From the IMG/VR virus record IMGVR_UViG_3300044730_000193, positions 1 to 28,492 of that record: 28,492 nucleotides of DNA; one strand, given 5' to 3'. The DNA is from a virus. Below, in pieces: positions 1-27,409 of the stretch (the stretch's first letter is position 1; every line of letters starts with the position of its first letter). The notes under the pieces were generated by a model, which saw only the letters and a program-made list of their open reading frames with translations, was not told the origin of the DNA and searched no databases. The position numbers and the translations under genes were made by a program.

Positions 1-99
1 TCTCAATCTCCTCCTTGTGCATTGCTTTGGCTTGTTCAAAGCTCATCTTAACAGCCTCAAGTAAATCACCATCGTGTTCAAAGTGTGACTTAAGGTTGT
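1..99. repeat. 99-bp exact direct repeat, copy 1
   Basis: Bases 1..99 are identical to 28051..28149. The first mismatch is at base 100 (t versus c), and similarity then continues more weakly to the start codon. It lies within the coding sequence of the two paralogous small genes. Confidence 0.95.
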
Positions 100-1857: not shown

Positions 1858-1883
1858 AAAAAAAAGAGGGCTACTTGCCCTCT
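1858..1883 (-). terminator. Rho-independent terminator overlapping the end of the 45-aa gene
   Basis: Minus-strand stem AGAGGGC / GCCCTCT (arms 1883..1877 and 1871..1865) with a 5-base loop AAGTA, followed by a run of seven Ts or more. The loop and distal arm include the TAG of the 45-aa gene at 1871..2008. It ends the replication operon just upstream of the promoter at 1807. Confidence 0.85.
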
Positions 1884-7185: not shown

Positions 7186-7608
7186 CTACTCTACGAGCTT
7201 GTCTATCCACTTCTTGATGAAGTACGCAGCGACAAGGATAAGCCCAAGCATAACTGCTGCACCTTCAAAAGTCCATCCCCTCTGCTTCTTCTCCTTTGTG
7301 AGAATCTTGGTCTGGGTAACTCTGATCGTGTCGGGCAAGCACGTTGCCTCAACGTACACCTTTCGGTCGATGTACTGAAGTTGAAGACGTACCTTGTCTT
7401 GGTAGATTGTCGTGTCCTTGTAGAGTTCGAGCGTGTCGGTCAGGTACTTTGTCTGCGTGACAATTACCGTGTCCCTTACAATCACACTCTCTAGGACTGG
7501 TTTCACAGTAGCGCAACTGCTAACTACCGCAAGAGTCGCAGCCATCGGGAGAATCCACATTGCAAGTCGGTTGGGGTTTAGTTTCGAGTTCATTGAGCCA
7601 GTTATCAA
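7186..7608 (-). CDS. Candidate unimolecular spanin (lipoprotein with C-terminal transmembrane helix)
   Basis: A 140-aa protein with a spanin architecture. Residues 7-32 form a lipoprotein signal: basic NSKLNPNR, hydrophobic LAMWILPMAATLAVV, and a lipobox-like VSSC with Cys32. The middle (35-105) is periplasmic and rich in D-T-(V/I) repeats (VIVRDTVIV, TLELYKDTTIY), predicted as beta strands. Residues 116-131 (GAAVMLGLILVAAYFI) form a C-terminal transmembrane helix with a basic cytoplasmic tail. Such a protein would link outer and inner membranes and fuse them in the last lysis step, as T1 gp11 does. The ATG overlaps the endolysin stop (ATGA). Confidence 0.75.
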   Translation of the reverse strand: MITGSMNSKLNPNRLAMWILPMAATLAVVSSCATVKPVLESVIVRDTVIVTQTKYLTDTLELYKDTTIYQDKVRLQLQYIDRKVYVEATCLPDTIRVTQTKILTKEKKQRGWTFEGAAVMLGLILVAAYFIKKWIDKLVE

Positions 7609-8030
7609 AAGGTGAGGTACTTGGTTTTGCCATTGTGCTTTACTGCTTTTAGGATTTGTTTTCGGTTCTTGCTACTTGAGTAACTAACGTGAACCCACGA
7701 TGGCGCAGTATCAGAGCCAAATTCCCAAATGAGTTGGTCAAAGTCTAAATTGTCTTTAATCCAATGAAACAACACCTCGTTGCCACCATCAAACTTCAAG
7801 TCGGCAGCTTGAGCCTGCACGTGCTGCGAGGTCTTTGCTCCCCCCACTTTGCTATTCACCGCAGGGCTGCGGTATGCACTCGTTACTTTCACCGCACCTA
7901 ATGCATCTCTCGTGGGTTGTAAGACGTTTTCTGCAAGCGCACGGAGGTTGGGTTCCAAGTGCTTGGGTAAAGCGTTAGGAAGCCCTGTTTTTGTAGCAGT
8001 CAGTTCTGCGAGGGTGAAGTTCTTTGTCAT
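7605..8030 (-). CDS. Endolysin, M15-family peptidase
   Basis: A 141-aa zinc peptidase of the M15 (peptidase M15_3, L,D-/D,D-carboxypeptidase or L-Ala-D-Glu peptidase) type that cuts the peptide of peptidoglycan. The zinc ligands are visible as SQHVQAQAADLK (His70, Asp77) and WVHVSY (His114), and VTSAYRSPAVNSKVGG is the typical substrate-side segment. There is no signal peptide, so export must depend on the holin. The ATG overlaps the stop of the basic 42-aa gene. Confidence 0.92.
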   Translation of the reverse strand: MTKNFTLAELTATKTGLPNALPKHLEPNLRALAENVLQPTRDALGAVKVTSAYRSPAVNSKVGGAKTSQHVQAQAADLKFDGGNEVLFHWIKDNLDFDQLIWEFGSDTAPSWVHVSYSSSKNRKQILKAVKHNGKTKYLTF

Positions 8031-10397: not shown

Positions 10398-10891
10398 AAC
10401 ACCCAAGAACTGAAGTTAGAGTCAGTATCGGGGTAAACGTCAGCATTGTTGTTGGCGTTGTATTCTGGGAATGAGGCTTGGTTGTAGCTCATGTACGTGA
10501 TGAACCTATCGGTGTAGTACTTCGCTAAATCCCGTGCCTTGCCTACCAAATAGTCAACCTCAATCTTTTCTGCGGTAGTGCTATTCTCCGAGTTGTGCTT
10601 GAACACCCCACCATTGCCGATAGTGTATGCTGCGAAGGGGAGATATTCCACCATTGCGAAATGGATTAACATCGGCTGAAGGTAGTCGTTGACCAATGCC
10701 AAATAAGGGTTGGCAAGAGTATTGGCGATAATGTCGTTGCTGATCTTGTCGTACAATTTCGTTCCCGTATAGTTTTGCAGGTGTATCTCCTGCGCAATCT
10801 TGATGAACTGGATGAACTTGTCCGTGTCCACGTTACCGCCTATTGCGGTGTTGCGAACCAAGTCCTCTCGTTTAATCCATAATGCCGTCAT
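10394..10891 (-). CDS. Head-tail connector-like protein, 165 aa
   Basis: A mainly helical protein beginning MTALWIKREDLVRNTAIGGN. The segment FIKIAQEIHLQNYTGTKLYD and the central DYLQPMLIHFAMVEYLPFAA resemble the helical bundle of gp6/gp15-type head completion proteins, and position after the portal fits. The C-terminal 30 residues are Asn/Asp-rich and flexible. I assign a connector role mainly from helical content and neighbourhood. Its start overlaps the stop of the GIY-YIG gene, which appears to have been inserted between it and the portal. Confidence 0.6.
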   Translation of the reverse strand: MTALWIKREDLVRNTAIGGNVDTDKFIQFIKIAQEIHLQNYTGTKLYDKISNDIIANTLANPYLALVNDYLQPMLIHFAMVEYLPFAAYTIGNGGVFKHNSENSTTAEKIEVDYLVGKARDLAKYYTDRFITYMSYNQASFPEYNANNNADVYPDTDSNFSSWVL

Positions 10892-11412
10892 ACAAATGAT
10901 ATTTTATATTTGTTAGTGTGTTTTCCATTAGCCATTATTGAAACAAGTGCTTGACTCACTCCAAGTGCCGTAGCACAAGCTTGAGTGGATTCAAACTCCT
11001 CATTGAGATAACTGCAGAACACACGCTTCTTTATTTTTTCAATAGCCCAAGTTGGCCTTACTCCTTTCATTCGGGCTTTGATTCGCTCAACTTCTTCGGG
11101 AGTATGCTTCTTGCCTGAAAACGATTTAACGGGGCCAATCACATCTATTAGATTTAATCCCGTTTTAATTGAATCGTAATGATTGATGTAGAACTGCTCA
11201 ATTCTATTTCGCTCATACGGAACATTACTTAAAAACAATACCTCAATCGAATGTGCTTCAAAACCGTATTTCTTAATTGATGAGTAGAATTTATTTGTAA
11301 TTGTTTTAGAATCACTTTTATGCTCAATCATTCTCCTATGTATATTGGAAGCCTGCCCAATGTAGATTTTTCCACTTGGGCTTGTGACTTTATATACACC
11401 TGCTTCTTTCAC
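10888..11412 (-). CDS. GIY-YIG homing endonuclease
   Basis: A free-standing GIY-YIG nuclease of 174 aa. The catalytic domain shows GVY (5-7) and YIG (17-19), the basic HRRM (Arg26/27) and the metal-binding Glu in RIEQFY (Glu72). The middle carries a NUMOD3-like segment (FSGKKHTPEEVERIKARM), and the C-terminus (residues 130-174, STQACATALGVSQALV) is a NUMOD1/IENR1-like helix-turn-helix for DNA recognition. Starts with GTG right after the portal stop (TAAGTG) and ends in an ATGA overlap. Such genes spread by cutting related phage genomes lacking them. Confidence 0.92.
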   Translation of the reverse strand: MKEAGVYKVTSPSGKIYIGQASNIHRRMIEHKSDSKTITNKFYSSIKKYGFEAHSIEVLFLSNVPYERNRIEQFYINHYDSIKTGLNLIDVIGPVKSFSGKKHTPEEVERIKARMKGVRPTWAIEKIKKRVFCSYLNEEFESTQACATALGVSQALVSIMANGKHTNKYKISFV

Positions 11413-15989: not shown

Positions 15990-16917
15990 TGCCAAGTTCT
16001 TTTAGTTTGGATTCTGCCCAACGCTTACCTGCAAGACCGCCCCATAACAGGAATGATATTGTACCGCAGGCTTGCGTGTCGTTCTCATCGTAGTATTCTT
16101 CGGCTCTTGATAGGTAAGAGTACATCCGTGTGATGGTTTCCACAGACACAGGTTTGCCTTGTGCTAACTGCTGCGCCCTTACCTTACCGACAGGAGTAGC
16201 ACACTTGTTGCCGTTCTTCTCGTTTAGTTCAATACCACGCTTGGCGTTGTTCTTTACCACATCTGGGTAATCGGAATACGAAGCCATCTCGGTGCGTGTT
16301 CCCGACTTCTTACGGCCGTCTCTTTTTATGATAGCGACAATTTGTGCAAGCATCAACGCTGCTTCCTGCTCCTCTATCTGTGCCATCTCTTGCTTGGCAA
16401 GGTTTAGTTTGTCCACGAAGTATCCCTCAATAGAGAAGCCTTTGACCTTGCCTGTCTTGACAAAGTTTGTCCAAATCTCTGGGTTGTTTACTTTCATAGA
16501 TACCATCCAAGTGCCTATTGGTAAATCAAAGCCGTACTTCTTGCTCTTGTCTTGTACGTCATCTTCGATAATCCATGACTCTACAACCGTGAGGCCGTTG
16601 ATTCCTACTTCGTGTTCAAGCGTAGCGTTGTTCTGCTTGCTCTTTTGAAAGAACATCTCGCTTGCTTTGCGGATGGTGGCTTCGCTGAAGTACACATAGA
16701 ACTCCTCTTGTCCCTCTGCTCGGTAGATGGGTTTGTTGGGTACGAGTGCTGCTCCCATAAGGATGCGCTTTTCATCGCTCTGCGTAGCAAACTCAACCCG
16801 TTGTGAGTTGAGCGCAATGAAGTCCTCCTCAATAGCAGGATATTCTACAAGGGAGATTGCATCAATGCCCGTGAGCAACATTGATTCATCAAGTATTAGT
16901 TCAATTAGTTTCATCAT
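15982..16917 (-). CDS. XkdF-like capsid maturation protease with conserved C-terminal domain, 311 aa
   Basis: Residues 50-170 match the PBSX XkdF (S78_2-type) putative head protease: ALVPNKPIYRAEGQEEFYVY, the LEHEVG with candidate catalytic His102, GTWMVSMKVNNPEIW, and KGFSIEGYF with candidate catalytic Ser162. Residues ~205-310 form a second module (YSDYPDVVKNNAKRGIELNE, NGNKCATPVGKVRAQQLAQG, YSYLSRAEEYYDEND, WGGLAGKRWAESKLKELG), which I recall attached to various phage head proteins of Bacteroidota. Its role is unknown. The start overlaps the tape measure stop (ATGATGA). Confidence 0.8.
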   Translation of the reverse strand: MMKLIELILDESMLLTGIDAISLVEYPAIEEDFIALNSQRVEFATQSDEKRILMGAALVPNKPIYRAEGQEEFYVYFSEATIRKASEMFFQKSKQNNATLEHEVGINGLTVVESWIIEDDVQDKSKKYGFDLPIGTWMVSMKVNNPEIWTNFVKTGKVKGFSIEGYFVDKLNLAKQEMAQIEEQEAALMLAQIVAIIKRDGRKKSGTRTEMASYSDYPDVVKNNAKRGIELNEKNGNKCATPVGKVRAQQLAQGKPVSVETITRMYSYLSRAEEYYDENDTQACGTISFLLWGGLAGKRWAESKLKELGNV

Positions 16918-18452
16918 CCGAATGTTGCGGTTCTTACTCTTTGGCGTTGTAGTTGTTGCGAGGTCGTTACATCCTGCCCTACAACGTATGCACGAACGGG
17001 TTGGTTAAACTGACCACCGATGCTCTGTGCAAGTTGGTTGATTCCACCCTGTCCGACTATGTTGAACTGCGGTGCTTGTGAGGGAGCAGTTGGCGCAGAT
17101 ATAGTTGTTGGAGGTGCGGCATTCGGGGAAGTAGGTATTTGCGTAGAGCCAACCTTCTTTAGGTTAGCAAGACCACCTGCAATTACTCCTGCGGCAGCGA
17201 TGGCACCAAAGGGTGGTGGGTATGCACCCAATGCTTTTGTAGCACCTTGATAAGTATCAATCACAATCTGTGTCATCGCAAGTGCCTTGCTGATTTTAGT
17301 GTTCTCTCCTGCAAGTGCAGCAAATCCGCTGATTGCTCCGCTTACCGCATCAAGGTTTGCAAGGGTGAAATTAATGTAGTCGTTTAAGTCGGCTGCTGAA
17401 GTCTCTGCTCCTTTAGCGACTGATTCAGTAAAGAACTGACCTACCCTCGCTATCTCTGCTCCACCTTGTTTGCTTGCCTCTACCGATTTATCTACAAAGT
17501 CCTTGAACTTCTTTTCGCTATTTTCAAATCTTGCTTTCTCTGCACTGGTTCTAGCGGCCTCAAGTTCCTTGATCTTGGCAATTTCCTCATTAAGCAATGA
17601 CATTGTTTCAGTCTGAAGCCTACGCCTACGCTGAATGTTTGCCTGCTCAAGCTCTGATATTCTTGCACGAGCCTCCTCAATACGAACCAAACCATCTTCG
17701 GTGACCTCACCCATCTTGGCTTGCTCTTGCAATACATTCAATCTCTGCCTCTGAACGGCTAATTCTTGGCGGGCTACTTTTTCCTCAATAGCTCCTGCTC
17801 TGGCAACCGCAGCGATTCTCTGCTCGGTGCTTTTCGTTACGTCATCAGCGATAAGGCGAGCCTCTGCAATCTGCTTGTTGGCGATAGCACGTTGTGCGAT
17901 AAGCGCACGTTCAGCATCCTCTACATCATTGAGCTGTTTGGCAAGTTCCCTGCCGAGTTTGGTTTCCCTAACAATCTCATCACCTAACCCCTTAAAAGCA
18001 CCTGCAACGCCTTCAATGGCTCCCTTGAAGTCTCCTTGAAAGAACTTAAATAAAGCCTCGCCTAATCCAATCACTCGGTCGATTACAACCTTTACCGCTG
18101 CGCCAAGCGCACCCATAACTTCAGCGAGTTTATCGCCACCACGTTCCGTTTCTTTGAAATACGCAACAAGCGATGTTACTGCGACAAGCAGCGCACCTAA
18201 TCCAGTTGCAATGATAGCACCCTTTAGTGTGCCGAATGCCCGAATCGTACTTGTGATACCGCCCTGCAATCCTTTGAAAGCAGATACTGCACCACCCGTT
18301 TGTTTGTCTAATGCAGATAAGCCGTTACTAATCGCCTCATTGCTCTCTTTGGCTTTGGTTTGGGTCTTGTCAGCCTCTATCCCTACGGCTTTAAGCGCAG
18401 CGATAGCGGATGTGGCATCCCCTTTAATCTCAATTATTTCAACTGCCGCCAT
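16914..18452 (-). CDS. Tape measure protein, 512 aa
   Basis: Long helical protein with features of siphovirus tape measures. The N-terminus (IEIKGDATSAIAALKAVGIE) is typical of TMP openings. A hydrophobic segment at 79-99 (AIIATGLGALLVAVTSLVAY) is followed by a long coiled coil at ~165-345 rich in Ala, Glu and Arg. A second hydrophobic patch near 400-430 (AIAAAGVIAGGLANL) precedes a Pro/Thr/Ala-rich tail. By the usual 0.15 nm per residue, the tail would be about 75 nm long. The sequence follows the two tail-tip genes and the small 50-aa gene. Confidence 0.85.
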   Translation of the reverse strand: MAAVEIIEIKGDATSAIAALKAVGIEADKTQTKAKESNEAISNGLSALDKQTGGAVSAFKGLQGGITSTIRAFGTLKGAIIATGLGALLVAVTSLVAYFKETERGGDKLAEVMGALGAAVKVVIDRVIGLGEALFKFFQGDFKGAIEGVAGAFKGLGDEIVRETKLGRELAKQLNDVEDAERALIAQRAIANKQIAEARLIADDVTKSTEQRIAAVARAGAIEEKVARQELAVQRQRLNVLQEQAKMGEVTEDGLVRIEEARARISELEQANIQRRRRLQTETMSLLNEEIAKIKELEAARTSAEKARFENSEKKFKDFVDKSVEASKQGGAEIARVGQFFTESVAKGAETSAADLNDYINFTLANLDAVSGAISGFAALAGENTKISKALAMTQIVIDTYQGATKALGAYPPPFGAIAAAGVIAGGLANLKKVGSTQIPTSPNAAPPTTISAPTAPSQAPQFNIVGQGGINQLAQSIGGQFNQPVRAYVVGQDVTTSQQLQRQRVRTATFG

Positions 18453-22460: not shown

Positions 22461-22928
22461 TTAGCAGATGCTTATCTCGGTGTTTGCAAGCAGCACGTCA
22501 AACGTGGCAGTCCACCCTGCAAGCAGGTTCTCAAACCTCTCGCTAAAGGGAACGCAAGAAGCAGTACCATCCAACTGATAAAGGTCGGTGTACAGAGTAC
22601 CCCTGCGCAGCTCTGTCACCACATCGTTGATTACTGCAAGCTGCGTGTTCAGTATGTTTTGCTCGTTGCTGATGCCATAGAACGGCTCTGCCTGCAATCG
22701 TGGATTCTCTTTGGTCTCATCTACCAAGTCCATACAAACTATGCTCACGTTCATCCGTACTATCTGTCCCTCGAATGTTGCTTGGTTGATAATGATGTGC
22801 GACAAAGGGAAGATGGTCTGCTTGTTTAGGTCGATGTCGAATATGTCACCCGTTGTTACCACGTTGACTTGGCTATTGGCTTCAAGCGTATCTTTTAGTT
22901 TGGTGGTGATGTCGTAGAACTGTCTCAT
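22461..22928 (-). CDS. Tail terminator-like protein, 155 aa
   Basis: Begins MRQFYDITTKLKDTLEANSQ and has the pattern of Bacteroidota-phage tail completion proteins: DIDLNKQTIFPLSHIIINQA, RMNVSIVCMDLVDETKENPR, QNILNTQLAVINDVVTELRR, RFENLLAGWTATFDVLLANT. The alternation of strands and helices resembles gpU-type tail terminators, which cap the tube. The start overlaps the chaperone -1 frame stop (ATGA). Position between the chaperone genes and gp10-like gene supports the call. Confidence 0.65.
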   Translation of the reverse strand: MRQFYDITTKLKDTLEANSQVNVVTTGDIFDIDLNKQTIFPLSHIIINQATFEGQIVRMNVSIVCMDLVDETKENPRLQAEPFYGISNEQNILNTQLAVINDVVTELRRGTLYTDLYQLDGTASCVPFSERFENLLAGWTATFDVLLANTEISIC

Positions 22929-23182
22929 TTTATTGACTTTTTTATTAGGTCGTTTTCAACTTCTTGCTTTTGCTTTTCGAATGTGAGGAAATGAAGACAC
23001 TCTTGGAGTTCCAATTTAGTGACTCCTCCAAACCTTCTAATATCTCCTTGAGCAAGTTGATATATTGTAGCGTACCATCCCCAACGAGCGGCGAATTGTC
23101 CTTGCTTGGAGTATTCGTTTTCTGGTTCCCGTTCTCCAAAGAGGTCAGGGAAGCCCGCAATAATTCGTTCCCTAAACGCCAA
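22925..23182 (-). CDS. -1 frame of the tail assembly chaperone pair (gpT-like extension), 85 aa
   Basis: Reads as LAFRERIIAGFPDLFGEREP, EYSKQGQFAARWGWYATIYQ, RRFGGVTKLELQECLHFLTF and a Lys-rich tail. The WGWY-x-x-IY-x-LA-x-GD-I-x-x-F-x-x-VTKL pattern is one I recall after the chaperone gene of Bacteroidota phages. It opens with TTG in the slippery T9 run at 23189..23181, exactly where a -1 shift from the 238-aa frame would enter. It is therefore either a separate TTG-started ORF or, more likely, the C-terminal part of a 245-aa fusion (160 upstream residues plus 85). It overlaps the other frame across 238 bases. Confidence 0.7.
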   Translation of the reverse strand: MAFRERIIAGFPDLFGEREPENEYSKQGQFAARWGWYATIYQLAQGDIRRFGGVTKLELQECLHFLTFEKQKQEVENDLIKKSIK

Positions 23183-23661
23183 AAAAAAAGCGATGCTCCC
23201 ATTGCAACACTCATCGGGGCTTGCTTCATCTGCTCCGAATACCTGCTTGACCCTTCGTATGGCTCTATCAGATACCGATGCTTGACCTCGCTTGTGATAG
23301 GGCGATACAATACCGCCATCACTTTGTGTAGGTCTTGCACATCTTGCAGGTAGCCATCAAGGTCAACAAACTCACCATAGGTGATATTGTCAAGCTCTGG
23401 GATGAACCCGTACTTCGTGTCCCCCATCGTGAAGGTTGGCGTGAGGCTTGGCTTCTCATTTATCATGGCCATTATGTGCTTGCTGATGTGGCTCACATCT
23501 TTGATGCGCACATTGGGCAACTGCGCCAGAGGCACTCCGCAGAATATCTCAAGCATCTTGTGGGTCAAGAACTCCTCATCGCCCTCTAACCTCGCAAAGC
23601 GTTGGTATTGGTCAAGGGTGATCTCTGATAGGGCGGTGGGTACAATTACCTTTAGTTCCAT
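22945..23661 (-). CDS. Tail assembly chaperone (gpG-like) frame 0, 238 aa
   Basis: Begins MELKVIVPTALSEITLDQYQ and has the helical LTHKMLEIFCGVPLAQ and GEFVDLDGYLQDVQDL segments of chaperone-like proteins I recall from this phage group. At residues 158-160 (Leu-Phe-Phe) the message passes through a run of nine Ts. Frame 0 continues after the run with WRLGNELLRASLTSLENGN, DGTLQYINLLKEILEGLEES and a Ser/Lys tail, also protein-like. Siphoviruses commonly make a short chaperone and a -1 frameshifted longer one in a set ratio for tail assembly. The late leader element precedes its ATG by 7 bases. Confidence 0.75.
   Translation of the reverse strand: MELKVIVPTALSEITLDQYQRFARLEGDEEFLTHKMLEIFCGVPLAQLPNVRIKDVSHISKHIMAMINEKPSLTPTFTMGDTKYGFIPELDNITYGEFVDLDGYLQDVQDLHKVMAVLYRPITSEVKHRYLIEPYEGSSRYSEQMKQAPMSVAMGASLFFWRLGNELLRASLTSLENGNQKTNTPSKDNSPLVGDGTLQYINLLKEILEGLEESLNWNSKSVFISSHSKSKSKKLKTT
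23181..23189 (-). promoter_or_regulatory. Slippery T9 run, probable programmed -1 frameshift site
   Basis: On the minus strand the message reads CTT TTT TTT TGG in frame 0. T_TTT_TTT is a valid -1 slippery heptamer; slipping back one base enters TTG GCG TTT, the -1 frame of 22925..23182. Confidence 0.6.
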
Positions 23662-23684: not shown

Positions 23685-24845
23685 TTAGCGTATGGCATAC
23701 CTGCCAAAGTTAGGTCTGCTCAACTTGTTGTAGGTGGCATAGCGAAGCGCATCTATGGCGTGGTTGAACGCATCTATGGGTTTGTTGAGCAGGTTGCCGT
23801 TCTTGTCCTCTACCCACTTGTAGTTCTGAAGTTCCTTGATTAGGTTGCTGCTTCGTGGGGTAACAAATAGCTTGTGCCGCTTCAGCACGTCAATACCCAC
23901 TATTACGCTATCTGCGCCCTTCTGCGTAGGTTTCACGTTCCATCCCATACGATGCAGCTCCTCAATAGATTTGGGTTCAGCAGAGTCAGCATATATCTCT
24001 GCCCTTCGGTCAAGCCCAAGTGAGGCAAGTACGTTGCTGATGTCGGGGTTGGTCATCCCCGTGCGGTAGATAAGCTCATCCACATAAAGATTATCCCCCG
24101 ACTTGTAAACCGCCACAAGTGCGGTTGGGTCGTTGGTGTAACCAAAGTCCATCCCGTGACATAGGAGCGTGGCATCCGTTGGTATCTCTGCCTGCCCGTA
24201 TTGGAAGATGGTGGCTCTGCTCATCCCCCTCTCACCCAGACCATAGATACGCCAGTAGTCATTGTCCGTATGTTGCAGCCTCTCTATCTCCTCCACGATT
24301 GAGGCATCCAAGAACGGGTTATCAAGGTATGTGGATTGGATATAGGTAACGTCATCCCTTGTCAGCAACTTATCGTATATCCAATGGAACGCATCAGAGG
24401 GGTTGTAGTCAACCCATATCTTGCCTGTGGTACGAATCAAGAGCTGAAAGAAATCCTCCCAAGTGAGTTCGTTTGCCTCATTGCAGAATAGGTAATCACG
24501 TCTTGCTCCCCGTTTCTTCTGCGGTTGGTCAAGGCTGATAAACTCAAAGAGGTTCCCGTTTAGCTCGTAGGTGTAGTCGCTCTTGTTATGCCGTGCCTCA
24601 TCGTAGAGACTATTGGCATTTAGGATTTCAAAGAAGTCACGATAGGCCGTCATCTTGAGAGACGGCAGAGACTTGCGGACAATGGAATACACCTTACCCC
24701 TGTCCTCCATCGCCATCACGATGAGCATCTGCAAAAGCGAGTAGGTCTTACCAGAACGACTGCCGCCTTGATTGACTACTATCCGAGTTGGGGCGGTGTA
24801 GTTCTTCTCAAAGAGTTCGCTACTCTTGATGTTTAGCTCGGACAA
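23685..24845 (-). CDS. terL: Terminase large subunit, 386 aa
   Basis: ATP-powered DNA packaging motor plus headful nuclease. Walker A is GGSRSGKT at residues 27-34; Walker B is YLFCNEAN at 118-125, followed by the coupling ELTWEDF. The RNase H-like nuclease domain shows MDFGYTNDPTA with Asp233, EIYADSAEP with Asp287 and DAFNHAIDALRY with Asp358/365. The compact size and order resemble PBSX/Terminase_3-type enzymes. The frame can only open with TTG at 24845 (a stop lies two codons upstream), and it overlaps the small subunit by 26 bases, suggesting translational coupling. Confidence 0.95.
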   Translation of the reverse strand: MSELNIKSSELFEKNYTAPTRIVVNQGGSRSGKTYSLLQMLIVMAMEDRGKVYSIVRKSLPSLKMTAYRDFFEILNANSLYDEARHNKSDYTYELNGNLFEFISLDQPQKKRGARRDYLFCNEANELTWEDFFQLLIRTTGKIWVDYNPSDAFHWIYDKLLTRDDVTYIQSTYLDNPFLDASIVEEIERLQHTDNDYWRIYGLGERGMSRATIFQYGQAEIPTDATLLCHGMDFGYTNDPTALVAVYKSGDNLYVDELIYRTGMTNPDISNVLASLGLDRRAEIYADSAEPKSIEELHRMGWNVKPTQKGADSVIVGIDVLKRHKLFVTPRSSNLIKELQNYKWVEDKNGNLLNKPIDAFNHAIDALRYATYNKLSRPNFGRYAIR

Positions 24846-25150: not shown

Positions 25151-25411
25151 CTAAATAACCCTTTTTGATAGGTGGTGATCGTGTGTTGCGGTTAGCATCT
25201 CTTTGTGCTGCTTCTTATCCCCATATTCTGTATGGCAATTACGGCATAGTGCCATCAGATTCTCGATGGTGTCAGCGAGCTTGCTTCCACCCATCCCTCT
25301 AGACTCTATGTGGTGTATGTCTTGCGCTTGGGCTTGACATACCTCGCAGGGGATGAAGTCAGTTGTGGAGTAGCCCATCCCTTTTAGGTAGACCTTTGTG
25401 TGGTTTTTCAC
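25151..25411 (-). CDS. HNH endonuclease, 86 aa
   Basis: Compact HNH nuclease with a structural zinc site: PCEVC (Cys22, Cys25) and LCRNCH (Cys56, Cys59). The catalytic motif is DIHHIESRGMGGSK (His33/34), with Asn51 and His60 completing HNH. Phages often place an HNH nuclease beside the terminase, where it assists in cos-type cleavage or maturation in HK97-like systems. I favour GTG at 25411, which overlaps the methyltransferase stop (GTGA); a TTG at 25426 is the longest option. Confidence 0.85.
   Translation of the reverse strand: MKNHTKVYLKGMGYSTTDFIPCEVCQAQAQDIHHIESRGMGGSKLADTIENLMALCRNCHTEYGDKKQHKEMLTATHDHHLSKRVI
25153..25165 (-). promoter_or_regulatory. Late leader element variant (AAAAGGGTTATTT)
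   Basis: Minus-strand AAAAGGGTTATTT, 33 bases before the terminase small subunit ATG. One base different from the 13500/23669 element and overlapping the HNH stop. Confidence 0.4.
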
Positions 25412-25935
25412 CTTTGGTAAATCCAACAGTCATCAATGAACCAAGCACGGGGGAGTAGTTCATCTACCGCTTGGATTACTCCCTGCCAATGTTCATGGTA
25501 GTCATCTCCTGCGATGAAGCCACCCTTCTTTACTTTGGGCAACCATAGCTTGATGTCTTCCTTTACCGCCTCATAGGTATGGGTAAGGTCTATGAATACC
25601 ACGTCTAAAGATTCGTTGGCAAACTTCTTTGATGCTACTTTGGATGTTGCTTTGATTGCCTTGTACTTGCGGTCTCCCATATTCTCCACAAAGAGATTGT
25701 AGATGTTTTGCTGCGTTGCAAGTTTATGTGTGGTCGTGAGTTCGTTTGGCGAACCCTTCCAAGTGTCAACGATTGTGATTTCTTGGGATGTTGCTTTGTC
25801 GCATAGGTAGGCTGATGACTTACCTAGCCACGCACCCAGTTCTACGAAGGTGCCGTCTTCTGGCATATTGGCAAGGAGGTAGTCGTATGCTGCTTGGTGG
25901 TTGAACCACCCGTCTATTTGTTTGCTAGTTTTCAT
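25408..25935 (-). CDS. Class I SAM-dependent methyltransferase, 175 aa
   Basis: Rossmann-fold methyltransferase of the Methyltransf_24 type. Motif I is FVELGAWLGKSSAYL (residues 30-44), where ELGxxxGxS binds SAM. ITIVDTW gives the acidic end of strand 2, and VVFIDLTHTYEAVKEDIKLW with KVKKGGFIAGDDYHE gives the motif typical of enzymes acting on sugars or small molecules rather than on DNA. The ATG at 25935 overlaps the upstream TGA (ATGA). Together with the two glycosyltransferases it could methylate a transferred sugar on the virion or host surface; the substrate is not visible. Confidence 0.85.
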   Translation of the reverse strand: MKTSKQIDGWFNHQAAYDYLLANMPEDGTFVELGAWLGKSSAYLCDKATSQEITIVDTWKGSPNELTTTHKLATQQNIYNLFVENMGDRKYKAIKATSKVASKKFANESLDVVFIDLTHTYEAVKEDIKLWLPKVKKGGFIAGDDYHEHWQGVIQAVDELLPRAWFIDDCWIYQR

Positions 25936-26459
25936 TTTAGGGCGTTGTAGTAGCAAAGGTACTGCTCTACGCATATAAGTGTGCCAAGCCTTGCGGCTTC
26001 ACTAGCAAAGATACCATCGGCCTCATAGGACATTTCAAAGCGTAGGTTGGGCAGGTCGTAGGGCTTAAACATATAACAGGCGGTGTCTATGTTGCCGACT
26101 TGGGGTTGGTCGGTAGGGCGTAGCCTGCCACCTTGCCCCCACGTTACGATTGAACAGTCAAGGGAGTTTAGGTTGTTCCACTCCTCAAGGAACTTTGGGT
26201 GCAGGATATTGTCATCATCCAAGAAGTACACCCAGTCCTCTGGAGTAAAGGAGTCAGCATACAATTCAAGGAACTCATTGCGTAAGGGGTTACCCATATT
26301 GCCTGTGCGTGTAGAGTAGTGTGTGATTGATGCGCCTGTTGCTCCCTTGAAGTCGGTAGCAGCATCCATCATCACCACCCATGTGGCGTAGTTGGGGATG
26401 TGTTGTTTTAGCCTTACTAGGTTTTGAGGTCGTGAGCAGGGCGTGACTATGTAAAGCAT
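25932..26459 (-). CDS. GT-A glycosyltransferase, GT43/GT2-like, 175 aa
   Basis: Begins MLYIVTPCSRPQNLVRL, resembling the VTP-x-SRP opening of GT43-type glucuronosyltransferases. GNPLRNEFLEL corresponds to the sugar-nucleotide site, and DWVYFLDDDNILHP contains the metal-binding DDD (residues 81-83). WGQGGR and SYEADGIFASEAARLG fit the acceptor side. It lacks a transmembrane segment, so it is soluble. It overlaps the GT4-like gene by 13 bases and the methyltransferase by four. Confidence 0.8.
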   Translation of the reverse strand: MLYIVTPCSRPQNLVRLKQHIPNYATWVVMMDAATDFKGATGASITHYSTRTGNMGNPLRNEFLELYADSFTPEDWVYFLDDDNILHPKFLEEWNNLNSLDCSIVTWGQGGRLRPTDQPQVGNIDTACYMFKPYDLPNLRFEMSYEADGIFASEAARLGTLICVEQYLCYYNALK

Positions 26460-27409
26460 CGTAGTTCGTTTATCTTATCCATCGTAAAGTCTTGCACATA
26501 CTCGTATAACGATTCCGTTAGGTCAGCCACTTGGTTGGGGTTTTCTTTAAGTCTTTTGATTGCTCCTGCCCATTCGCTTGGGTGCTTGATGGCAATGCAG
26601 TTCTCTTTGGTGATATAGGGTGAATAAGGTTGCGTGTTGCTCACTATCAATGCGCACTTGCTAAACCCTGCCTCAAGCATCTTTAGGTGCGACTTGCACT
26701 TGGCAAACTCGGAAGTGCTTAACGGCACAAGGCTCACATCAAAGAACTCGTAAAGTTTATGGTAGTGTGTTGGTGGCATCGTAGGCAGCCTATGGCTTGC
26801 CTTCATAATGTCTGGGTATCCATCCACCTCCGCGACATACCCTTGATAACCTTCAAGGTTGATTGTAGATTCCCTTACGTCTAGTGCGTGGTGGTTGCCA
26901 CCAATATACCCGAAGCGCACTTCTTCGCTTGGCTCTCGCTCTACCTGCCACGTTGGTACGCTGATGGCATTGGGGATGATTCGGATGTTGGTATTATACT
27001 TCTTGACCTTTGAGGCAAGGTGCTTGTTTGTCACCCATACCTCATCTGCTGCTTTCATAGAGCGCACGATGCGCTCCCTCATCTGCTCCGAGTAAATCCC
27101 AAGCAAGGGATGCGTAGGAGGCAGCACCCACCAGTCATCATTGTCAACGATTAGCTTGATTCCCTCTTTGCGGCATAGTTTCAAGAAGTCATCAAACGGC
27201 TCTACTGGGAACACCCTTGAGGTAAAGATATGAGTAACCTTCGGCCATATTTCGGGGTCAATGTCCGTTATCTTCTCAATGAAAAAGACATCTACATCCT
27301 TGTGGCATATCAAGGGTGCAAATGTCCTGTGGTGTGATACACCCGAATTCTGTTTGTGGAACGCAAGAACGAATGGTCTAATCATATTGTTCTGTGTCGT
27401 TGTGTTCAT
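26447..27409 (-). CDS. GT-B glycosyltransferase, GT4-like, 320 aa
   Basis: Two Rossmann-like domains of the GT-B fold. The N-terminal half has GIKLIVDNDDWWVLPPTHPL (residues 83-102) and ADEVWVTNKHLASKVKKY (121-138). The C-terminal half has RIIPNAI (143-149), VRFGYIGGNHH (165-174), and the donor-site segment KSHLKMLEAGFSKCALIVSN (239-258) with Glu246 in place of the usual E-x7-E. It ends just inside the second glycosyltransferase. I list the ATG at 27409; the ATG at 27385 (MIRPFVLAFHKQ) would overlap the neighbour less. Possible targets are virion proteins or host surface glycans. Confidence 0.85.
   Translation of the reverse strand: MNTTTQNNMIRPFVLAFHKQNSGVSHHRTFAPLICHKDVDVFFIEKITDIDPEIWPKVTHIFTSRVFPVEPFDDFLKLCRKEGIKLIVDNDDWWVLPPTHPLLGIYSEQMRERIVRSMKAADEVWVTNKHLASKVKKYNTNIRIIPNAISVPTWQVEREPSEEVRFGYIGGNHHALDVRESTINLEGYQGYVAEVDGYPDIMKASHRLPTMPPTHYHKLYEFFDVSLVPLSTSEFAKCKSHLKMLEAGFSKCALIVSNTQPYSPYITKENCIAIKHPSEWAGAIKRLKENPNQVADLTESLYEYVQDFTMDKINELRCFT

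Follow-up and report, generated by a model that had tools for sequence, protein, structure and literature searches.

Introduction

Frameshifting in phage tail genes, in its textbook form, yields two products that differ by an extension. Genes of the lambda G/GT type lie directly before the tape-measure gene, and seven Ts suffice for a -1 slip of the ribosome. Since genes of this kind as a rule reach a stop shortly past the slip, a frame 0 that stays open beyond it is unusual. The lambda proteins gpG and gpGT are reported to bind the tape-measure protein, the T part being the one that binds the tube protein (PMC5009743), and in the SEA-PHAGES genes the distance from slip to stop is given as 26 nt on average (PMC10885494). 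Runs of nine As or Ts are described as efficient slippage sites in vivo (PMC5009743), and homopolymers of eight or more are named as frequent ones (PMC3711429).

At the locus analysed here the two products would differ instead by the swap of one end for another, and both frames are open in hundreds of phage sequences. These sequences form a large natural data set on how one DNA stretch serves two reading frames, and they bear on whether some phages fix a protein ratio by slippage of the polymerase rather than of the ribosome. Among the matches listed in the literature search, with subscription papers mostly outside it, no paper was found that treats this gene, or a tail gene with long dual coding past its slip. 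The reading regarded here as quite probable is that of one gene giving two proteins with alternative C-terminal ends, through a slip at a run of nine Ts (T9).

Gene layout and position in the window

The window is the whole stretch of viral DNA that was analysed, 28,492 bases long. Frame 0 of the slip gene opens with an ATG at 23661 and crosses the T run as CTT TTT TTT TGG; a -1 shift at the heptamer would give a predicted product of 160+85 = 245 aa (Table 1). The first-pass annotation had described two frames joined at T9 by such a shift, with products of 238 and 245 aa and 78 codons of frame 0 past the slip. The analysis reproduced these coordinates and lengths, and with them the prediction, made from sequence, of two products of nearly equal length. 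The T9 run is the sole A or T homopolymer of nine or more in the window, the next longest being an A8 at 1858..1865.

Table 1. Features of the slip gene and of its neighbours, in coordinates of the window
Feature	Position	Strand	Evidence
Frame-0 ORF, 238 aa (160 shared codons + 78 post-slip)	22945..23661	-	ORF list and translation
N-terminal part common to both forms, 160 codons	23182..23661	-	AlphaFold2 pLDDT 76-95 per ten-residue block, residues 1-170
T9 slippery run (A9 on the + strand)	23181..23189	-	At least nine Ts in 257 of 259 regions
Heptamer T_TTT_TTT inside the T9 run	23188..23182	-	
-1 frame after the slip, 85 codons (LAFRERIIAG...), TTG ORF, stop TGA	22925..23182	-	Conserved, under selection
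Overlap open in both frames	22945..23181	-	Frame-0 constraint strongest in the first ~60 bases, 23181..about 23122
Next gene, 155 aa; its ATG (22928) overlaps the -1 frame TGA as ATGA	22461..22928	-	
Large terminase subunit gene, next upstream of the slip gene	23685..24845	-	PF04466/PF17288, phrog_2
Probable tape-measure gene	16914..18452	-	phrog_3336 tail length tape measure, E 3.7e-12

Four genes stand between the slip gene and the probable tape-measure gene, and the best profile match of the latter is phrog_32985 (unknown function, E 8.1e-35). The slip gene is probably a tail-assembly gene. The identity as a tail chaperone, the name first given to it, would draw on position, architecture and weak profile hits. 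The G/GT-like slip architecture agrees with that name, but the only strong match is to phrog_32199, a family of unknown function (residues 3-167 of the window protein, E 1.9e-21; 81/81 members of alignment A7). The match to phrog_166, a 'tail protein' family, is weak (22/81 members, best 2.2e-4), and the gene does not adjoin the tape-measure gene. In a library of predicted viral structures, one protein annotated as 'tail assembly chaperone' stands at E 0.2 to the frame-0 model.

Several other genes of the window were noted in passing. A GIY-YIG domain ORF (10888..11412, minus strand, PF01541, E 6.9e-6) lies between the portal gene and a 165-aa gene and looks like a homing endonuclease, and an HNH endonuclease (25151..25426, minus strand, PF01844, E 3.8e-9) lies just upstream of the likely small terminase gene. 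The stretch 25408..27409 (minus strand), which lies upstream of the packaging genes, holds a methyltransferase ORF (PF13578) and two further ORFs that lack a Pfam match and are glycosyltransferase-like by eye. An ORF with a peptidase M15 domain (7605..8030, minus strand, PF08291, E 7.5e-17) is a candidate endolysin.

Relatives and conservation of the T run

Scans with either frame retrieved at least 458 loci, nearly all of them IMG/VR contigs; the window's own locus is among them, as are two MAG contigs and two phage records. A further scan with a distant seed added at least 77 more. The scans took the most similar sequences first, that is the best 80 of 162, 136, 537, 411, 482 and 93 relatives. 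After loci incomplete over 740 nt and duplicates were left out, 458 became 199 and 77 became 60, so that the final set consists of 259 unique complete regions, the window's own (L159) included, with no duplicate remaining. Two of them (L330 and L360), on contigs truncated at the 5' end, have a misplaced gene start and were excluded, and run counts therefore refer to 257 regions. As the sequences are related, all counts are of non-independent trials.

Among the matches listed, the run is T9 in 231 of these 257 regions, T10 in 24, T11 in one and T12 in one. A run of at least nine Ts is retained down to about 30% identity of the N-terminal part, the isolates P12024S and P12024L of Nonlabens phages included. 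With the T11 and T12 variants left out, the -1 frame is open for 81-90 codons past the slip in 255/255 regions, and frame 0 for 48-80 codons in 253/255; in P12024S and P12024L frame 0 stops after 25 codons. All 255 T9 or T10 regions preserve the heptamer in the proper phase. The third frame stops within 0-3 codons in 194/194 regions, so that other slips would yield short products.

A scan seeded with P12024S gave two relatives only, at 99% and 94% identity, both with T9 and the same short frame 0. In the phage collection, the Nonlabens phages were the only cultured relatives found with four queries, and a fifth query gave no match. A search of 395 genomes from the phylum of the MAG behind one locus (L319, titled Bacteroidetes bacterium) found a match in that MAG alone.

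The two longest runs (L417 with T11 and L419 with T12, the run starting at about position 2473) belong to relatives of T10 phages and are real variants or assembly errors. In the former the N-terminal part and the -1 domain stand in one frame; in the latter the genomic frame 0 ends four codons further on.

A sequencing or assembly indel that splits one 245-aa gene is another conceivable explanation. Single-chain relatives that seem to exist at the level of structure speak for it, as does the T11 contig with both parts in one frame. Against it, T9 or T10 with the same two frames recurs in 255/257 regions, among them two isolates and three contigs that are 99% identical to the window, come from other samples and all carry T9 (L003-L005). 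This comparison with homologs, which the first-pass annotation had named as the check, upholds its T run and refutes the indel for the family; the chance of this explanation is regarded as very small.

Selection on the two reading frames

Substitutions were studied in three clades: A (n=55, which holds the window), B (n=91) and C (n=45, later 104). Changes were reconstructed by parsimony on trees built from the upstream region, and the upstream region read against a fake frame of the same geometry served as control. The tests leave out the T11 and T12 variants and four further regions (L001, L002, L458 and L457), and the later position-wise test also leaves out L524.

When the overlap is recoded with the phages' own codon usage so as to preserve the -1 protein, frame 0 stays open for a median of 7 codons. 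Under this null the mean probability of a frame 0 as open as observed is 0.045 in clade A, 0.019 in B and 0.009 in C, with single clade A sequences reaching 0.265. Changes that are silent in the -1 frame and replace a residue in frame 0 occur at 0.80, 0.49 and 0.47 of the control rate in A, B and C, respectively (codon-permutation P 0.023, 0.0002 and 0.0002), and at 0.28, 0.14 and 0.32 of it in the first 15 codons past the slip. Compared with doubly silent changes, the same class gives ratios of 0.66 [0.31-2.14] in A, 0.27 [0.16-0.48] in B and 0.37 [0.26-0.52] in C, against control values of 0.96, 1.40 and 1.07; the clade A value is not significant. The doubly silent changes themselves are not depressed, although their numbers are small (7, 32 and 17 in A, B and C), and this speaks against a purely nucleotide-level constraint. 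Besides, changes that create a stop in frame 0 are reduced 3- to 8-fold relative to the control (0.75, 0.72 and 1.15 in A, B and C versus 2.40, 6.01 and 5.85).

The picture is less sharp where the -1 residue changes as well. The frame-0 ratio is then 0.75 [0.45-1.24] in A, 0.72 [0.53-1.01] in B and 0.96 [0.73-1.32] in C, with controls of 0.91, 1.38 and 1.09, and none of the overlap values is significantly under 1. The -1-frame ratio given a frame-0 replacement is 0.35 in A, 0.51 in B and 0.83 in C, where the interval of 0.63-1.12 includes 1. The -1 frame is the more constrained of the two.

By position, frame-0 constraint after codon 20 is not detectable in clade A (0.95-0.99). In clade B the values are 0.63-0.66, hardly under those of the -1-only stretch past the frame-0 stop (0.70-0.76), and in the enlarged clade C they are 0.50-0.51 versus 0.78-0.85 past that stop. 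A kappa of 1.5 or 4 leaves the position-wise frame-0 results unchanged. These substitution patterns indicate that both frames are under selection. For protein-level dual coding the support is good in all three clades as far as codon ~15-20, and clade C alone extends it to the entire overlap; elsewhere frame 0 is open without clear constraint on its residues. The dual coding proposed for the whole overlap thus stands near the slip by the overlap substitution test, and further on it stands in clade C, is doubtful in B and is absent in A.

These limits leave room for another explanation, considered unlikely, in which the -1 frame is the sole conserved protein end and frame 0 is open for other reasons, for instance because most ribosomes are carried near the next start for coupling, its own tail having no function at the protein level. 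It agrees with the absent (A) or doubtful (B) frame-0 constraint past ~20 codons, with the low confidence of the frame-0 model after residue 180 (pLDDT 33-58) and with the arrangement of the stops: in 132/194 regions the -1 stop and the start codon of the following gene overlap as ATGA, and in 192/194 the frame-0 stop precedes the -1 stop by 17-89 bases. What opposes it is that changes replacing a frame-0 residue are strongly suppressed in all three clades within 15 codons of the slip and, in clade C, over the whole overlap. The ATGA overlap itself hints at translational coupling of the next gene to the -1 frame. As a separate observation, the frame-0 stops lie at a few fixed distances ahead of the -1 stop (17-20, 59-68 or 80-89 bases in 192/194 regions), as if the spacing to the next gene start mattered.

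Predicted proteins and the start of the -1 frame

AlphaFold2 models the N-terminal part of the frame-0 protein with confidence and draws a helix at residues 150-181 that crosses the slip point at 159-160. From residue 181 the pLDDT falls to 33-58 by block, though the model has a further helix at 195-214. For the -1 end a helical structure is predicted with a mean pLDDT of 72, the five models ranging from 60 to 72. The stretch of frame-0 selection coincides with the end of the modelled helix 150-181, from which we infer that either reading must complete the helix crossing the slip point, should the model be right.

In the predicted-structure library of viral proteins, the frame-0 model has 38 matches at E up to 0.001, and no function is named for any of them. 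Three, A0A6J5SVK3, A0A516L5A8 and A0A6J5N0W0, are single chains of 241-267 aa (E 2.2e-4, 1.3e-8 and 2.0e-10) that also match the model of the -1 domain, weakly (E 0.011, 0.019 and 0.083). This suggests, at the level of models, that the N-terminal part and the -1 domain exist as one protein elsewhere, and since these three proteins seem to carry both parts they support the fusion as a real product. A PDB fold search with the -1 domain gave three matches, all with E above 7, and the VIA-align matches of the frame-0 model are mainly to helices at residues 151-226 (Z up to 7.2) and uninformative. Among profiles, the N-terminal part has no Pfam or NCBIfam match worth keeping and the -1 part none in Pfam; in PHROG the -1 part matches phrog_38404 and phrog_3146 weakly, in 5/82 members each (best 0.0012), neither with a function.

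The layout might also be read as a pair of separate genes, of which the second has an internal start of its own, and the Nonlabens phages are indeed annotated in this way, their second gene beginning at an ATG 28 codons past the slip. In addition, a TTG stands at the slip in 42/194 regions, and small proteins of 54-84 aa that form library entries of their own match the -1 model, among them A0A516L648 (83 aa, E 1.5e-3) and A0A516M9I1 (79 aa, E 1.6e-3). These entries could be independent genes or pieces left by gene callers from a like two-frame layout, and in the latter case they would lose their force for separate genes. No ATG is found near the slip in 190/194 regions, no start codon is common to the clades, the conserved -1 frame starts at the slip itself, ahead of those internal starts, and the three distant single chains seem to hold both parts. 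Two separate genes are thus very improbable. The slip that joins the two parts would correct the annotation of the cultured relatives, where the second half stands as a hypothetical gene of its own.

Ribosome or polymerase slippage

The run is never shorter than nine Ts in the 257 regions, and it occurs in three phases relative to the heptamer: -1..7 (most regions), -2..6 and 0..8. Its edge lies one base further 5' in 15 regions and one base further 3' in 3, besides the 24 regions with T10, and where one edge is lost the opposite edge is extended. This compensation points to selection on run length, as slippage of the RNA polymerase needs. The independent events behind the shifts are probably few, for which reason transcriptional slippage is given only about an even chance.

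The classical alternative is that the ribosome undergoes programmed -1 frameshifting on U_UUU_UUU, in the manner of lambda G/GT; the Ts beyond the heptamer would then reflect a choice of hydrophobic codons, and the open frame 0 would be a by-product. It is a serious candidate, held somewhat below an even chance. An unbroken, in-phase heptamer is present in the 255 T9 or T10 regions, NTT TTT TTT is invariant in 191 sequences although clade A elsewhere prefers TTC (387) over TTT (254), and -1 frameshifting is reported to be widely conserved in tail genes (PMC5009743). Nevertheless, seven Ts would be enough for the ribosome, yet runs of seven or eight occur in 0/257 regions and the loss of an edge is offset by extension opposite, and no downstream structure is common to the clades (pseudoknots being outside the search). 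A combination of both mechanisms, or some other one, has a small chance.

Folding of 38 representatives gave mean z values of -0.23 for the 40 nt upstream and -0.07 for the 60 nt downstream, and 5/38 have a window under -2; no RNA structure common to the clades was found on either side of the run, in a search that did not cover pseudoknots. For the unique upstream 40-mers the mean z is -0.11 in clade A (n=21), -0.78 in B (n=65) and 0.46 in C (n=60), versus 0.04, 0.38 and -0.02 in a control window. The lean in clade B corresponds to a stem GCNCC/GGNGC (e.g. L308 and L306) a few bases before the T run, which is complete in 34/65 sequences and exceeds slid versions of it. This stem sits in conserved Ala-Pro and Gly-Ala codons, and its sole freely varying pair forms no more often than the columns predict, so that it shows no covariation beyond coding constraint. 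In appearance, stem and T run resemble a terminator hairpin plus U-tract.

Three ideas were tried and dropped. RNA structure, pseudoknots aside, is not taken as a general stimulator, with mean z near 0 and a clade B lean without covariation. A Shine-Dalgarno-like stimulator is not general: a 4-mer lies upstream in 30/191 sequences (16%) versus 9.5% of control windows, a mild excess. Like hydropathy in both frames, measured over 18 residues, gave r of 0.48, 0.65 and 0.14 in A, B and C versus means of 0.25, 0.37 and 0.47 in the control, and so on the whole does not exceed it.

Taken together, a run that occupies three phases without ever falling under nine Ts and the lack of an RNA structure shared among the clades favour RNA-polymerase slippage at least as much as the ribosomal -1 step, as far as sequence comparison goes. 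The proposal of programmed -1 ribosomal frameshifting made at the outset therefore keeps its -1 joining of the frames, and loses its place as the sole mechanism.

A model with two products

In the proposed model, one gene would give rise to two proteins that share a 160-residue N-terminal part. Normal decoding would produce the 238-aa frame-0 form, and a slip at T9, whether one extra U put into the mRNA by the polymerase or a -1 step of the ribosome, would produce the 245-aa form, which would end in a helical 85-residue C-terminal domain. Selection on the first ~15-20 post-slip codons in both frames would then mean that either reading finishes the long helix. Further on, the -1 frame would carry the conserved domain (WGWY...), while frame 0 would be kept open with weaker, clade-dependent or no constraint. 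By analogy with lambda G/GT, the role of the short form during assembly may be to coat a tail protein, and that of the long form to bridge it.

The T run, the two open frames and the substitution patterns on which the model builds are observed; expression, the ratio of the products, the type of slippage and the role in the tail are inferred. Put in its strongest form, the proposal is that a widespread phage group sets the ratio of two tail-assembly isoforms by RNA-polymerase, not ribosomal, slippage at nine or more Ts, with ends that are superposed over 150-240 bases and finish the same helix. In this form it is offered tentatively.

Comparison with known systems

Lambda G/GT is like the window gene in that two forms, one short and one long, share an N-terminal part and are linked by a -1 shift, in a gene of a structural operon, and a slip site that joins two ORFs and is conserved in relatives is present here too. 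Three features set them apart. In lambda G/GT frame 0 stops soon after the slip, whereas here it continues for 48-80 codons in 253/255 regions (25 in the Nonlabens pair). Lambda G/GT adjoins the tape-measure gene, whereas the window gene follows the terminase gene and precedes the probable tape measure by four genes. Finally, the window gene has a homopolymer of at least nine.

Genes with programmed transcriptional slippage have a conserved A/T homopolymer of about nine or more, and the window family, never below nine in 257 regions, fits this pattern. The dnaX gene of Thermus thermophilus is reported to slip transcriptionally on a nine-base A/T run like that of the window (PMC5009743). In that gene stops come fast in both other frames, whereas here one of them holds a conserved domain of 85 codons and the other reaches a stop within 0-3 codons.

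The closest cultured counterparts are the homologous genes of the Nonlabens phages P12024S (P12024S_38/_39) and P12024L (P12024L_40/_41), with T9 and the same -1 end; they differ in that frame 0 ends 25 codons past the slip and the -1 end is annotated as a separate gene. The family phrog_32199, without known function, is matched by the window protein only as far as residues 3-167. What we rate as new in comparison with genes of the G/GT kind is the long conserved dual coding after the slip.
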